Positions 26,905 to 29,868 of a stretch of 64,000 nt of DNA are shown here, in pieces. The stretch is from positions 539,122 through 603,121 of the forward strand of contig NZ_CP065592.1 of the NCBI RefSeq assembly GCF_016025255.1, read 5' to 3'. Numbering within the stretch: position 1 is the stretch's first letter; each line of letters begins with the position of its first letter. Both the position numbers and the translations under genes were made by a program. Below the pieces are notes generated by a model. The model saw only the letters and a list, made by a program, of their open reading frames with translations, was not told the origin of the DNA and did no database searches. Source of the stretch: Sphingosinicella flava (GTDB lineage: Bacteria > Pseudomonadota > Alphaproteobacteria > Sphingomonadales > Sphingomonadaceae).

Positions 26905-27245
26905 CACGCATCCACCTTCTTCTCGGCAGCAGCCTTGGGCTGGAACTGCTTGAGGTTGGCGCGACGTTGGGCTTTGATGGCCTCGATTTCGGTCGCTAGT
27001 TTCTTGTTCTCGGCCCGCACAATTCGGAGATCGATCGCAAGCTCGATGCGCCGGTTCAGGTTGAATTCGCGGTCCTCTTTCAGGCCCGCAACTTGCTCGG
27101 AGAGGCTAGACCAGCCTTCAAAATCGACTCCTTGCTCGGAGGGGCTAGACCAGCCTTCAAAATCGACTCCAAGCTCTTTGGCAATCGCATCATATTCAGC
27201 AGCCTTGCGCGCATTCTCGCGGGCGGTTTTGAAGATTGAGAACAT
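26904..27245 (-). CDS. First gene of the leftward early operon, with a 13-residue tandem repeat
   Basis: 113 residues, starting MFSIFKTARENARKAAEYDA. Two adjacent copies of GVDFEGWSS(P/L)SEQ are encoded by a 39-bp tandem duplication (27093-27170). A long charged helix follows (EIEAIKAQRRANLKQF). It begins about 60 bases downstream of the operator-covered promoter at 27305-27335. Unknown function; possibly a coiled-coil partner protein. Confidence 0.65.
   Translation of the reverse strand: MFSIFKTARENARKAAEYDAIAKELGVDFEGWSSPSEQGVDFEGWSSLSEQVAGLKEDREFNLNRRIELAIDLRIVRAENKKLATEIEAIKAQRRANLKQFQPKAAAEKKVDA
27093..27170. repeat. 39-bp tandem duplication inside the first early gene
   Basis: Units 27093-27131 and 27132-27170 differ at one position (agaggct versus ggggct). 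Thirteen codons are duplicated in frame. Confidence 0.9.
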
Positions 27246-27304
27246 CGTGCATCTCCATCAGGAGCCACCGTCTTCGTCCGAAGCTGATCAGGTGGCGATA
27301 GACA

Positions 27305-27359
27305 TACGTATGCGCATACGAATGTAAATAGGCAAGTGCTTTTTATGCGTTCGCGCATT
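27305..27359 (-). promoter_or_regulatory. Leftward early promoter with two operators (pL/OL-like)
   Basis: On the minus strand, a -35 TTGCCT (27335-27330) and a weak -10 CATACG 17 bases on. The 14-bp perfect palindrome CGTATGCGCATACG (27307-27320) covers the -10. A second, imperfect site (27344-27359, TATGCG...GCGCAT) lies upstream. The 16 bases CATTCGTATGCGCATA are identical to those in the rightward promoter at 29600-29615. Confidence 0.7.
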
Positions 27360-27407
27360 TTTATTTTGTCGGGTGTTTCTGCTATCCTCGCGCCGAGGGA
27401 GGATCAG

Positions 27408-27689
27408 ATGCGGGTTTTGAGTCTTGTAGCGGCGGCCGTGCTTGCATCAGCCTGCGAGGGCGATACGCGGCCGGACCAATGGGATGCCTATGTCTATTCG
27501 GATCGCGCTGATATGACGAAGGTCGAGACAATTCGAGGGTTCAAAACCTTCGAACACTGCCAGATCGCCGCAATTGATCGTCTGCGCTCAATGCCAGATC
27601 CGGACGCGGGCGATTATGAGTGTGGTTACAAATGCGGCACCGTCGCGGAGTACGGCGGCTTAAACGTGTGTGAGGAGACGCGGAAGTAG
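27408..27689 (+). CDS. Small prophage lipoprotein-like protein
   Basis: 93 residues from ATG 27408, preceded by GGGAGGA at ribosome-site distance. The N-terminus MRVLSLVAAAVLASACEGD looks like a lipoprotein signal with the cysteine at residue 16. The mature part has six further cysteines at the end region (CQIAA, CGYKCG, CEETRK). It is transcribed against both neighbouring operons, in the immunity region, so it may be expressed in the lysogen and act at the cell surface. No family recognised. Confidence 0.65.
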   Translation: MRVLSLVAAAVLASACEGDTRPDQWDAYVYSDRADMTKVETIRGFKTFEHCQIAAIDRLRSMPDPDAGDYECGYKCGTVAEYGGLNVCEETRK

Positions 27690-27710
27690 GGCAGGGCAGT
27701 AGATACAAAA

Positions 27711-27731
27711 AGCCCCGCGCTAGGCGGGGCT
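27711..27731 (-). terminator. Terminator of the P63C gene
   Basis: Perfect 8-bp stem AGCCCCGC/GCGGGGCT with a 5-base loop. On the minus strand it is followed by TTTTTG, a strong rho-independent signal 49 bases after the P63C stop. It may also stop rightward transcription from the lipoprotein gene. Confidence 0.8.
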
Positions 27732-27779
27732 AATTGCCACTCATCAAGCGGCGAGCGGGGATTGTCTTAAAAGCAGCTG

Positions 27780-28844
27780 CTAAGCACTAGTCAGAAGCAG
27801 AGTAGAATTGTCGCCACCTGGCGGGGCATAATCGTCTGGATATGGCAATAGATAGTTGGAGCCCCATTGCGGGAACTCCTTATCGATGCGCTCCATAAAC
27901 ACTCGCCAGTCGGGCGAATATTTCATGAGCATCACAACTGCTGCCAAATGCTCCCTGAGCTTCGGATGGCCGATATCATCCGTAAGTCGCTGGAACAGCT
28001 TGTGCCGGAGATTTCCGCGTTCGCTGCGCGGCGTCTGGCGATTCAACTCCTCCCACACGCCGGGCGCCAGTCTTCTGTACACGATATTGTTCGTCCAGTG
28101 GCCAATTACGCCAGGTCGCGCATTGCTCTGCTCGTTGAACTCCCAGCCGTTCAGGCGATAGATTTGGCGGTAGAATTCGACGGGAAAAGTAGGGATCCAT
28201 GGCTGAAGCTCTTTGGCCACGAACTTCCGTAGAATCTCCGCAAGCGCGTCCCTCTGCCGATAGTCCTGATAACCGGTGGCTTCATCTACAAGCGCCAAAA
28301 TGCCTACGGTGGCAAAGCCATGCTGAAGAACCGCCGCCCTTTCAGCGAGATGCCTCCGCTGCGCTCCTAATTTCCCTTGATTAGCCGCATCAATGATGAC
28401 GGCACAGATGTCCGGCAGAATCGTCGCCTCGTAGCCATCCGCAGGGTTCCCGCCATGCGGTGGTATGAAGCGAATTGGAGAATTGACGCGCGCGGTTAAG
28501 CCTCTGATATCAACCCCTTTTTCAGCTAAACTTGTCATCAATTCGGCAATTCGGCGCGCGCCAGATTTCCCGCCGCCGAGCGACAGGCCAATACCCCCCT
28601 GCAATCCTCGTTGGGCTAAGACGCGCGTGCCGTCGCCCAGCACGTAGCAGGGAATCTCAATGTCCCCGATGCGTAAGGGCCTGTCGGGGGCACCGTACTT
28701 AGCCAGAACAGGCTGTGCTTTGCCTTCCCCAGCCCAGCGAGTCATCGCCGCGATGCGTGCGCTCTCCGACCGCTGTTCCTTCGTTAGTCTTTGCGCCCGC
28801 ACTTTGCCCCCCTTCGCAGATGCTTCTTTACGCATTTCGTCCAT
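27780..28844 (-). CDS. P63C-domain protein
   Basis: 354 residues from ATG 28844, preceded by AGAGG; longer in-frame starts (28874, 29159) lack a ribosome site or enter the repressor gene. A basic Ala/Lys/Arg-rich N-terminus (ASAKGGKVRAQRLTKEQRS) is followed by the P63C domain: DIEIPCYVLGDGTRVLAQRG, 'YEATILPDICAVIIDAANQG', TVGILALVDEATGYQ and a 'FPVEFYRQIYRLNGW' block. P63C proteins occur in phages and mobile elements; their role is not established. Its promoter region carries a separate perfect palindrome. Confidence 0.85.
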   Translation of the reverse strand: MDEMRKEASAKGGKVRAQRLTKEQRSESARIAAMTRWAGEGKAQPVLAKYGAPDRPLRIGDIEIPCYVLGDGTRVLAQRGLQGGIGLSLGGGKSGARRIAELMTSLAEKGVDIRGLTARVNSPIRFIPPHGGNPADGYEATILPDICAVIIDAANQGKLGAQRRHLAERAAVLQHGFATVGILALVDEATGYQDYRQRDALAEILRKFVAKELQPWIPTFPVEFYRQIYRLNGWEFNEQSNARPGVIGHWTNNIVYRRLAPGVWEELNRQTPRSERGNLRHKLFQRLTDDIGHPKLREHLAAVVMLMKYSPDWRVFMERIDKEFPQWGSNYLLPYPDDYAPPGGDNSTLLLTSA

Positions 28845-28880
28845 AGCCAACCTCTTTGCGTTGTTAGCACGCATAGAACA

Positions 28881-28897
28881 TGCGTAGTGACTACGCA
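28881..28897. promoter_or_regulatory. 17-bp palindrome upstream of the P63C gene (candidate operator)
   Basis: TGCGTAGT-G-ACTACGCA, perfect 8-bp arms around one base, centred 45 bases before the P63C start. It differs from the TATGCGCATA operators of the immunity switch, so it may bind another regulator or the P63C protein itself. Confidence 0.6.
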
Positions 28898-29058
28898 ACA
28901 AGATTGCGATGGTTCGTCCAATAGGAATTTTCCTACAGCTCCGAATCGGTGTAAAAGAACAAAATAAGAACAACGATTCGGGTGCGGTATGGCTGATTTG
29001 CTGCTGGATGAGCCAGCTTGTGGAGAGGGTTGCCAGGAGTGTTCGCTGCGTTGCGCAA

Positions 29059-29532
29059 CTATCGTGATTGCAATGGCCGATCTTCGCCGCCGTCACGAGC
29101 TGACGCTTCGCGAACTTTCTTGCGCAAAGCGGCCCGGCCTTTTGGAGGATTTGAGGCAAATTGAAGAGCAGCTGGAAAGCTCTTCGCGAGCTTTTGCGCG
29201 CGCCCGTCTTGGTCCGGGTCTACATCGATCGTCTCTAAAAGCCCTGCAAACACCTCTGTCAGCACGTCTTCATTAGGAAGCGTGATGCCGGGGCCTGGTG
29301 GAAGGTTCTTAACAGGCGCTTCTTCCGATAGTTTTTGCTTTAGAAACTCCTTGGGCGTCACCCCGGCAAGGTCGGCGAGGTCCGTAAGGGCCGATCCCCT
29401 TGGCACAGACAGAATGCCCCATCTCGAAACAGTGCCCTGGCTCACACCCAGTCTATCGGCGAACACTGTCTGGTCCTCTTTCAGGCGCCGAAGCAGGGCT
29501 TGCACATTGTGATAGAGAATCGGGTGTTTCAT
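29059..29532 (-). CDS. Phage repressor-like HTH protein
   Basis: 157 residues from ATG 29532; upstream in-frame ATGs at 29538 and 29544 lie in an operator. An XRE-type helix-turn-helix (VFADRLGVSQGTVSRWGIL, residues about 18-36) is followed by an acidic linker and a C-terminal helical region. There is no recognisable LexA-type peptidase domain, so it would not be inactivated by classical RecA-stimulated self-cleavage. It is divergent from the Cro-like gene with three palindromic sites between them, the position of a CI-type repressor. Confidence 0.8.
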   Translation of the reverse strand: MKHPILYHNVQALLRRLKEDQTVFADRLGVSQGTVSRWGILSVPRGSALTDLADLAGVTPKEFLKQKLSEEAPVKNLPPGPGITLPNEDVLTEVFAGLLETIDVDPDQDGRAQKLAKSFPAALQFASNPPKGRAALRKKVREASARDGGEDRPLQSR

Positions 29533-29619
29533 GCGCATGCGCATACAACCGGCTTAAAAGAACACCTATTCGCAAACGCATAAAGCCTATTGCGCTTTGC
29601 ATTCGTATGCGCATATACA
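29530..29619. promoter_or_regulatory. Divergent immunity control region with three operators
   Basis: Site 1 at 29531-29546 (ATGCGCATGCGCAT), site 2 at 29567-29582 (TATTCG...CGCATA) and site 3 around TATGCGCATA at 29606-29615. The rightward promoter is TTGCGC (29590-29595), an 18-base spacer and TATACA (29614-29619); site 3 fills the spacer edge. The -10 ends 6 bases before the ATG of the Cro-like gene, so its transcript is probably leaderless. Confidence 0.7.
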
Positions 29620-29625
29620 TTAAAC

Positions 29626-29868
29626 ATGAGCATCGTCAGAGAGACCCGATTAGCATTAGGGCTTTCGCAAGCTGATCTTGCGGCCAAGCTCGGCGTCCAT
29701 CAAACAACGGTCAGCCGTTTCGAAACAGGAGACCTGCCAGTCGACGAGCGCACACAGCTCGCGCTGGAGGCCCTGATCGCGCGCAATAAGCCGGTCGCCA
29801 AGTTGAACAAGTCCAGCCGCCCTTTCCCCTCCCCATCCACTGGGAAGACTGAGGCAGCAGCGGCATGA
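29626..29868 (+). CDS. Cro-like HTH regulator
   Basis: 80 residues from ATG 29626. The XRE helix-turn-helix is clear: RLALGLSQADLAAKLGVHQT with the recognition helix TTVSRFETG. A Pro/Ser-rich tail follows. It is first in the rightward early operon, opposite the repressor, and probably shuts off repressor synthesis or tunes early expression. ATGA overlap to the next small gene. Confidence 0.8.
   Translation: MSIVRETRLALGLSQADLAAKLGVHQTTVSRFETGDLPVDERTQLALEALIARNKPVAKLNKSSRPFPSPSTGKTEAAAA

Follow-up and report, generated by a model that had tools for sequence, protein, structure and literature searches.

The window analysed here is the whole stretch of 64,000 nucleotides from Sphingosinicella flava (contig NZ_CP065592.1, positions 539,122 to 603,121), and the subject of this report is the immunity region of the prophage within it, at about positions 27305 to 29625 of the window. 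The repressor gene (29059-29532, minus strand; 157 amino acids) sits between two groups of operator sites and is divergent from the gene for a Cro-like HTH_3 protein (29626-29868, plus strand; 80 amino acids), as in phage lambda. On the left side lie genes for SSB, Erf-like, and NinB proteins, and on the right side genes for RusA-like, O-like, methyltransferase, terminase, and portal proteins; judged from gene order, these would form a left recombination operon and a right replication operon of the lambda type. A gene for a P63C-domain protein (phrog_2384; 27780-28844, minus strand) separates the repressor gene from the left operators. An unannotated gene for a protein of 95 amino acids with the motif PxCxxGCxxCxxxCA (28989-29276, plus strand; hereafter Cys4) is convergent with the repressor gene, shares its last 218 nt, and is a candidate for an SOS-induced antirepressor. 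The locus is probably a lambda-type bipartite immunity region with an operator class of its own and a two-protein induction switch, in which a LexA-controlled Cys4 antirepressor would replace self-cleavage; it is from the features described below that we infer the operator binding, the LexA control at this locus, and the antirepressor action.

The bases CATTCGTATGCGCATA occur exactly at 29600-29615 (plus strand) and 27309-27324 (minus strand), that is, on opposite strands of the two early promoter regions, and are preceded by TTGC, 6 bases ahead at the rightward promoter (PR) and 7 at the leftward promoter (PL), just as a preliminary description of this DNA had stated. When up to three mismatches are allowed, CATTCGTATGCGCATA has four matches in the window, compared with a mean of 0.37 and a maximum of 2 in shuffled sequences. 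The five palindromes proposed in that description do exist as five sites, but their register was wrong, each site being a 14-mer ATKCG-N4-CGMAT with the half-site ATKCG (two at PL and three at PR). On the right, OR1 (29601-29614, ATTCGTATGCGCAT) lies inside the spacer between the -35 and -10 elements of the cro promoter, OR2 (29568-29581, ATTCGCAAACGCAT; 33 bp from OR1) lies directly upstream of the -35 element, and OR3 (29531-29544, ATGCGCATGCGCAT; 37 bp from OR2) is a perfect palindrome that covers the repressor start codon. On the left, OL1 (27310-27323, ATGCGCATACGAAT, identical to ATTCGTATGCGCAT on the minus strand) lies in the PL spacer and OL2 (27345-27358, ATGCGTTCGCGCAT; 35 bp from OL1) upstream of the -35 element. 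OL1 also has a second register, ATACGTATGCGCAT at 27304-27317, which shares 8 bp with it. Taken alone with one mismatch allowed, TATGCGCATA is not significant in the window (three found, mean 1.2, at least three in 10 of 100 shuffles). The same operators are thus present at both divergent early promoters, as in a lambda-type OL/OR circuit, and the proposal of a lambda-like circuit, with one operator family at both promoters flanking a repressor gene next to a divergent Cro-like gene, is well supported by the sequence; the arrangement recurs in other prophages.

PR (29590-29619, plus strand) is made up of the -35 element TTGCGC (29590-29595), an 18-bp spacer holding OR1, and the -10 element TATACA (29614-29619), while PL (27304-27335, minus strand) has the -35 element TTGCCT (27335-27330), OL1 in its spacer, and a -10 element that is a poor match here. 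These placements derive from the sequence and from alignment with relatives; a consensus promoter scan, which needs a closer match, called neither PL nor PR, and no confident placement was obtained for the repressor promoter. The alignment was anchored on OR1 and OL1 and comprises 12 other PR and 11 other PL promoters, with one row (L059; such numbers denote loci) aligned among the PL rows and counted as the cro-side promoter that its gene order makes it. Most of the aligned promoters display the order upstream site, 6-8 nt, TTGAC-like -35, about 6 nt, and promoter-proximal site, with a TATA-like -10 beginning within the last bases of the promoter-proximal site, and the overlap of operators with early promoters is seen both in the window sequence and in the relatives. 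In all but one (L037) of the 12 rows listed as PR, the cro ATG lies 10-13 nt past the site, and L059 has ATGs 3 and 12 nt past it. This distance leaves scant or no room for a leader, so the cro mRNA is probably leaderless, and the transcript from PR is predicted to start at the cro ATG or within 1-2 nt of it. The left gene begins farther from the site: L063 and L076, where it follows a GGAGG, have a distance of about 32-33 nt, and the window has one of about 65 nt.

The strict pattern ATKCGNNNNCGMAT is found at 16 places in the 2,421,597-base genome, five of them in this 2.3 kb and 11 elsewhere. The rate outside the region predicts about 0.01 strict 14-mers per 2.3 kb, and the resulting Poisson value of about 1e-12 is flattering because the pattern was drawn from the same five sites. 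A compound module, TATGCGN4CGNAT-N5-9-CAA-N5-9-TATGCGN4CGNAT (site, -35 TTG, site), likewise drawn from these five sites and related ones, is present in the window at PL and PR only (0 in 100 shuffles), and these are also its only two occurrences in the whole genome (reversed control, 0). The preliminary expectation that the motif would not be common across the chromosome was therefore borne out. The 11 other strict matches on the chromosome could be taken as a sign that the palindromes are sites of a host regulator or chance occurrences; this is barely credible in view of their clustering, the geometry of the module, and the co-occurrence of the sites with repressor and Cro genes in other phages. 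Since the five sites themselves defined the pattern, independent support comes from sites in other genomes and phages.

Relatives were obtained via the operator sequence itself, whole-genome searches, and an alignment. Single-protein scans with the repressor (viral and genome contigs) and with Cro (viral contigs) yielded no relatives, and the repressor and Cro matches in phage records are mostly at the level of the helix-turn-helix (HTH). Exact ATTCGTATGCGCAT is found in 77 viral stretches, nine of which contain a second site of the same form within 60 bp of the seed; 9 of the 11 such partners lie at 31-33 bp, and control gaps of 2, 3, 5, and 6 in the same 77 stretches together gave one partner. 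Among 46 loci fetched by repressor similarity, 18 gap-4 sites occur in 7 loci (at least two sites in 6 of the 7), compared with 1-4 sites for each of the control gaps 0-3 and 5-10. The similarity profile included four motif-fetched repressors, and the gap-control count leaves out L089-L096 and L107 (same contigs or near-identical) and has L136-L140 as five hand-chosen records. One of the seven loci (L098) carries two strict sites to the left and two to the right of its repressor gene, the other loci having fewer. The compound module was found in 51 viral stretches (six of them loci fetched earlier) and in 10 one-per-species genomes, nine of which are titled as belonging to what we take to be members of the Alphaproteobacteria (named hosts: Sphingomonadaceae, Novosphingobium, Sphingobium, Pelagerythrobacter, Mesorhizobium, and Afipia) and one as an unclassified bacterium.

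Another of the seven site-carrying loci is that of Bordetella phage BPP-1, which was found from the repressor by tblastn. Six operator-like sites flank its cI gene (L140, 2912-3987), three exact and three with one mismatch, distributed as three in the gap between cI and Cro (two with one mismatch) and three in an OL-like gap (one with one mismatch); the feature table of the fetched stretch names none of the six, and the only open full-text paper matched for BPP-1 operators concerns another phage. The BPP-1 cI/Cro pair resembles the one described here in its HTH-related repressor (36.5% over 78 amino acids) and in the ATGCG-N4-CGCAT sites at both cI flanks, and differs in that its cI is annotated as UmuD-like and that the locus has no Cys4 match. 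Four named phages with S24 relatives, from among 26 records (Mesorhizobium P1, Ruegeria 45A6, Paracoccus Pyei1, and Microcystis Mwe-Yong1) lack a strict ATKCG site; these four and Salmonella phage SPN9CC, fetched for its P63C gene, have one or two one-mismatch matches each and no strict site, so the one-mismatch sites of BPP-1 count by clustering only. The operator class ties prophages of Alphaproteobacteria to a Bordetella phage, and it makes immunity groups readable from sequence.

The preliminary description also held that neither regulator looks like lambda CI, which is correct in that the self-cleaving S24 half is absent from the repressor but not with regard to its HTH, which is of the CI type and similar to those of P22 C2 and 434. 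Among solved structures, the repressor family profile is closest to the P22 C2 and 434 repressors, with the similarity confined to the HTH, and the best structural match of the repressor model is the P22 C2 DNA-binding domain, which places the repressor with the CI-type repressors in its DNA-binding half; in Pfam, the window repressor itself falls below the HTH cut-offs. The recognition-helix motif QxTVSR is common to the window repressor and Cro, so either or both may bind the operators, and most operator-linked repressors and Cro proteins have a recognition helix of the form Q-x-[TS]-[VI]-x-[RK]. Across 52 operator-linked repressors (51 hand-picked ones plus that of the window, with near-duplicates and loci with a cut-off or unfound repressor omitted), Q32 and P44 do not vary, and conservation is at least 90% for R37 and G41.

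The second half of the repressor is a different matter. Past the HTH it consists of a short three-helix C-terminal part, where the model contains helices only, and neither the domain search nor the model gave an S24 peptidase domain; a Foldseek search with this part returned no match at E <=0.001 and no confident fold, the best matches being HTH domains. Lambda-like, RecA-stimulated self-cleavage might be supposed from the CI-type HTH and from the Peptidase_S24 match found in 32 of the 52 operator-linked repressors. For the window repressor such self-cleavage is highly improbable, given its length of 157 amino acids, the helices of the model, and the lack of any S24 match among the 18 short repressors to which it belongs (two of the 34 long repressors fall below the S24 threshold); without an S24 domain, RecA-linked self-cleavage is not expected. 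By eye, a near-identical HTH in loci of the Mesorhizobium type is joined in some cases to an S24-type half and in others to short domains (e.g., L153 and L183), which indicates that the operator half has been kept and the induction half changed. The induction half thus appears to be exchanged under an unchanged operator half, with S24 on some repressors and short domains on others. Some Mesorhizobium-type short repressors are followed by AGGAACAATTTCCT, and in four cases (L145, L146, L152, and L159) the short repressor is followed by a small open reading frame (ORF) that by eye resembles an Arc-like ribbon-helix-helix protein and is not Cys4.

Induction of the prophage is probably supplied by the Cys4 ORF (28989-29276), which lies behind a LexA-type box and was overlooked in the preliminary description, and Cys4 offers a concrete answer to the question of how a repressor lacking S24 could be switched off here. 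The repressor gene does not extend into the first 23 codons, which include all four cysteines; the remainder is antisense to the code for the repressor C-terminal part; some relatives use GTG or TTG as the start. The box (28957-28971, plus strand; GAACAAAATAAGAAC, or GTTCN7GTTC on the minus strand) lies 17 nt ahead of the Cys4 ATG, and its form is that reported for the alphaproteobacterial LexA motif, GTTC-N7-GTTC (PMC8565304). The host lexA gene has the same kind of box about 20 nt before its start, and a scan for GTTC-N7-GTTC places a box just past the repressor 3' end in many short-repressor loci. Counted over whole loci, 19 short-repressor loci (186 kb in total) contain 14 SOS-type boxes against 5.7 expected, and 21 S24-type loci (175 kb) contain 6 against 5.3. 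The element TAGGAATTTTCCTA stands at 28922-28935, 21 nt before the LexA-type box, and the whole or half element is seen by eye near the same place in many Cys4 loci.

A profile built from 12 Cys4 members, most of them first noticed via the box, was run against 396 genomes of the order and matched at 17 places in 15 genomes, all from the family of the window; in a class-wide sample, 1 of 385 genomes matched, the window's own. One unassigned human-faecal phage record also carries Cys4, as does Sphingobium scionense (L150), and the repressor of L115, a locus from a genome of the same family, is in appearance identical to the one in Pelagerythrobacter marinus (L151). The host family of Cys4 is probably the Sphingomonadaceae in the GTDB sense. 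The four cysteines are kept at 16 of the 17 places, of which 14 have an exact GAACN7GAAC 45-75 nt before the first cysteine, one (L205) has it with one mismatch, and one (L212) has none. Fifteen of the 17 places lie opposite a match to the repressor profile, with an overlap of 125-224 nt (two of these weak, L212 and L215), and the other two lie opposite ORFs that look HTH-like by eye. A spacing control on 23 distinct Cys4 genes, which omitted L203 as a repeat of the window and L215 as fragmentary, found the gap of 7 in 20 genes, at most 2 for any other gap, and 0 in the opposite direction; adding L094 (with a box) and L220 (without) brings the total to 25 distinct genes, 21 with an exact box. 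Among the 11 members absent from the profile, nine have the exact box, so that a LexA-type box ahead of the small gene is evident at the level of the family in both counts.

The part of Cys4 that overlaps the repressor gene carries a signature of its own. In seven pairs of repressors with at least 50% identity, third-codon-position identity is 37% outside the overlap and 59% inside it (higher in 7 of 7 pairs), and second-position identity is 77% outside and 69% inside (lower in 5 of 7 pairs). In the window the third base of a repressor codon is the second base of a Cys4 codon and the repressor second base is the Cys4 third base, and a rise at third and fall at second positions is what would be expected if the antisense Cys4 frame were under selection; the sequences thus indicate that the overlap is dual-coding. 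The convergent overlap, at all 15 places with a repressor match and here of 218 nt, could also suggest that the LexA-controlled transcript and not the protein acts, with antisense RNA or colliding transcription cutting repressor synthesis after damage. The dual-coding signature and the invariance of the four cysteines, which are encoded beyond the repressor gene, argue against a transcript acting alone, which would also require pre-existing repressor to be diluted before induction could occur, and we regard this explanation as unlikely.

Comparisons of Cys4 with Pfam, PHROGs, and NCBIfam gave no convincing family match, which leaves room for an SOS-induced protein that has another job (e.g., RecA/LexA modulation, exclusion, or early lytic control) and is linked to the switch by location only. 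The distribution of the gene makes this explanation rather unlikely, since Cys4 travels with the overlapped short C-terminal part across differing HTHs and operators and has no match in 40 loci with S24-type repressors (0 of 40). The partners of Cys4 in L108-L114 differ in their HTHs, and the DNA examined there contains no ATKCG sites, so Cys4 tracks the C-terminal part and not the operator.

Several observations weigh against the proposed switch. In this genome taken alone, the box is not beyond chance (2 in the window vs 1.46 expected; 52 in the genome vs 52 for the reversed control), and no exact box was found within the 3.8 kb around the host recA gene. The initial script listed only four-cysteine ORFs with a nearby box (named loci excepted), so that only the 11 later members test the box fairly, and three Cys4 members (L096, L212, and L220) have no box and one (L205) has it with a mismatch. 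Two loci of one lineage (L020 and L026) keep a weak match to the Cys4 profile and have lost the cysteines and the box. In eight relatives (L107-L114) whose C-terminal part is of this kind and whose HTHs differ, 3.4 kb of each contained no ATKCG site, which makes the operator and the Cys4 module separable. A Cys4 match is also lacking in 10 of the 22 short-repressor loci, chiefly ones whose C-terminal part is of the Mesorhizobium type, so the absence of S24 is not always paired with Cys4 (the sets of 22 short and 40 S24-type loci were compiled manually, with a few duplicate entries). The structure models are also of limited help, that of the repressor C-terminal part being of moderate confidence (block pLDDT 62-84 from residue 71) and that of Cys4 poor at both ends.

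The P63C gene, which lies downstream of the repressor gene, could be the antirepressor instead, as it weakly matches phrog_2899, a PHROG that bears the name anti-repressor Ant (E 7e-8), and starts about 80-110 bp from the LexA-type box. This explanation is very unlikely in light of the direction of the box, which reads GAAC in the Cys4 direction in 20 of 20 exact cases, and of the distribution of the two genes, Cys4-box pairs being found without P63C and P63C, among the loci assembled up to that comparison, only in copies of this region and three phages fetched for P63C. In Salmonella phage SPN9CC, where the P63C gene comes directly after cI, the adjoining repressor is annotated as LexA family, so an antirepressor would not be needed there. 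The place between the repressor gene and OL holds rexAB or bstA in other phages (PMC8585504), and no match was found for the P63C gene in PADLOC. P63C is likely an accessory lysogeny gene and not part of the switch core. A perfect 17-bp palindrome, TGCGTAGTGACTACGCA, is present at 28881-28897, upstream of the P63C start; it differs in type from the operators and is possibly a private operator. In three Mesorhizobium-type loci without Cys4 (L183, L193, and L195), a LexA-type box lies between the repressor gene and OL in the reverse direction.

With Cys4 as the antirepressor, a scheme for the switch can be proposed. During lysogeny, the repressor would occupy OL1 and OL2 as well as OR1 and OR2 and shut off PL and PR, the promoter-proximal sites OL1 and OR1 blocking polymerase by their position between the -35 and -10 elements. 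The second site of each pair, about three turns upstream, would probably aid cooperative binding, and OR3, over the repressor start codon, would probably give autorepression. Upon DNA damage, the host LexA would leave the box at 28957-28971 and the Cys4 protein would be made, inactivating the repressor, most likely via the repressor C-terminal part. PL and PR would then fire, and Cro would take over the same operators in lytic growth. More broadly, we lean, if only slightly, towards a general arrangement in prophages of what is probably the Sphingomonadaceae, whereby a repressor and its SOS-induced inactivator are encoded on opposite strands of the same DNA, co-evolve base by base, cannot be separated by recombination, and move as a cassette across HTHs and operators, taking the place of RecA-driven self-cleavage with no change in the immunity sites.

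The circuit is real as far as the sequence can tell and ordinary in kind. It shares with lambda OL/OR, 434, and P22 a single operator family at both promoters, a repressor gene between them, a divergent cro gene, and operators within the promoters, and with 434 an operator of 14 bp. It differs from all three in its ATKCG-N4-CGMAT operator, its repressor without S24, and its probably leaderless cro, and from lambda in that neighbouring sites are mostly 31-37 bp apart and not about 24 bp. The part likely to surprise specialists is the missing cleavage domain together with an SOS-boxed, dual-coded Cys4 gene under the repressor. To our knowledge, a regulator and its likely antagonist encoded in mutual antisense is a rare case, and gene callers tend to drop such antisense pairs as spurious overlap.

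The induction logic is known from other phages. According to a study of Gifsy (PMC3121763), the repressors of Gifsy-1/2/3 (GfoR/GtgR) are not cleaved and are released from DNA by small LexA-controlled antirepressors (GfoA/GftA), and such antirepressors acting on non-cleaved repressors are presented there as established, also for phages 186 and N15. The present locus resembles these systems in having a presumably non-cleaved repressor in the range of 150 amino acids and a gene for a small protein under a putative LexA site, and by analogy Cys4 may likewise release the repressor. In Gifsy, by contrast, the antirepressor gene is described in that study as lying outside the immunity region, whereas here the candidate gene lies inside, opposite the repressor gene and overlapping it; the four-cysteine family also matches nothing convincingly in Pfam, PHROGs, or NCBIfam. 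Small phage proteins without known domains also inactivate the cI repressor in the transcription factor-small ORF (TF-smORF) modules (PMC10432266). A phage transcription factor activates those modules independently of DNA damage, in contrast to the gene found here behind a LexA-type box. Neither the operator class nor an antirepressor overlapping its own repressor gene was described among the open full-text matches listed, from which subscription journals and preprints are largely absent.

Two further features of the left arm were observed. An ORF for a lipoprotein-like protein of 93 amino acids (27408-27689, plus strand) reads rightward from beside OL2; it has no convincing family match and is possibly active in the lysogen. 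A 39-bp tandem duplication (27092-27169), in frame and 97% identical, lies within the left operon's first gene.

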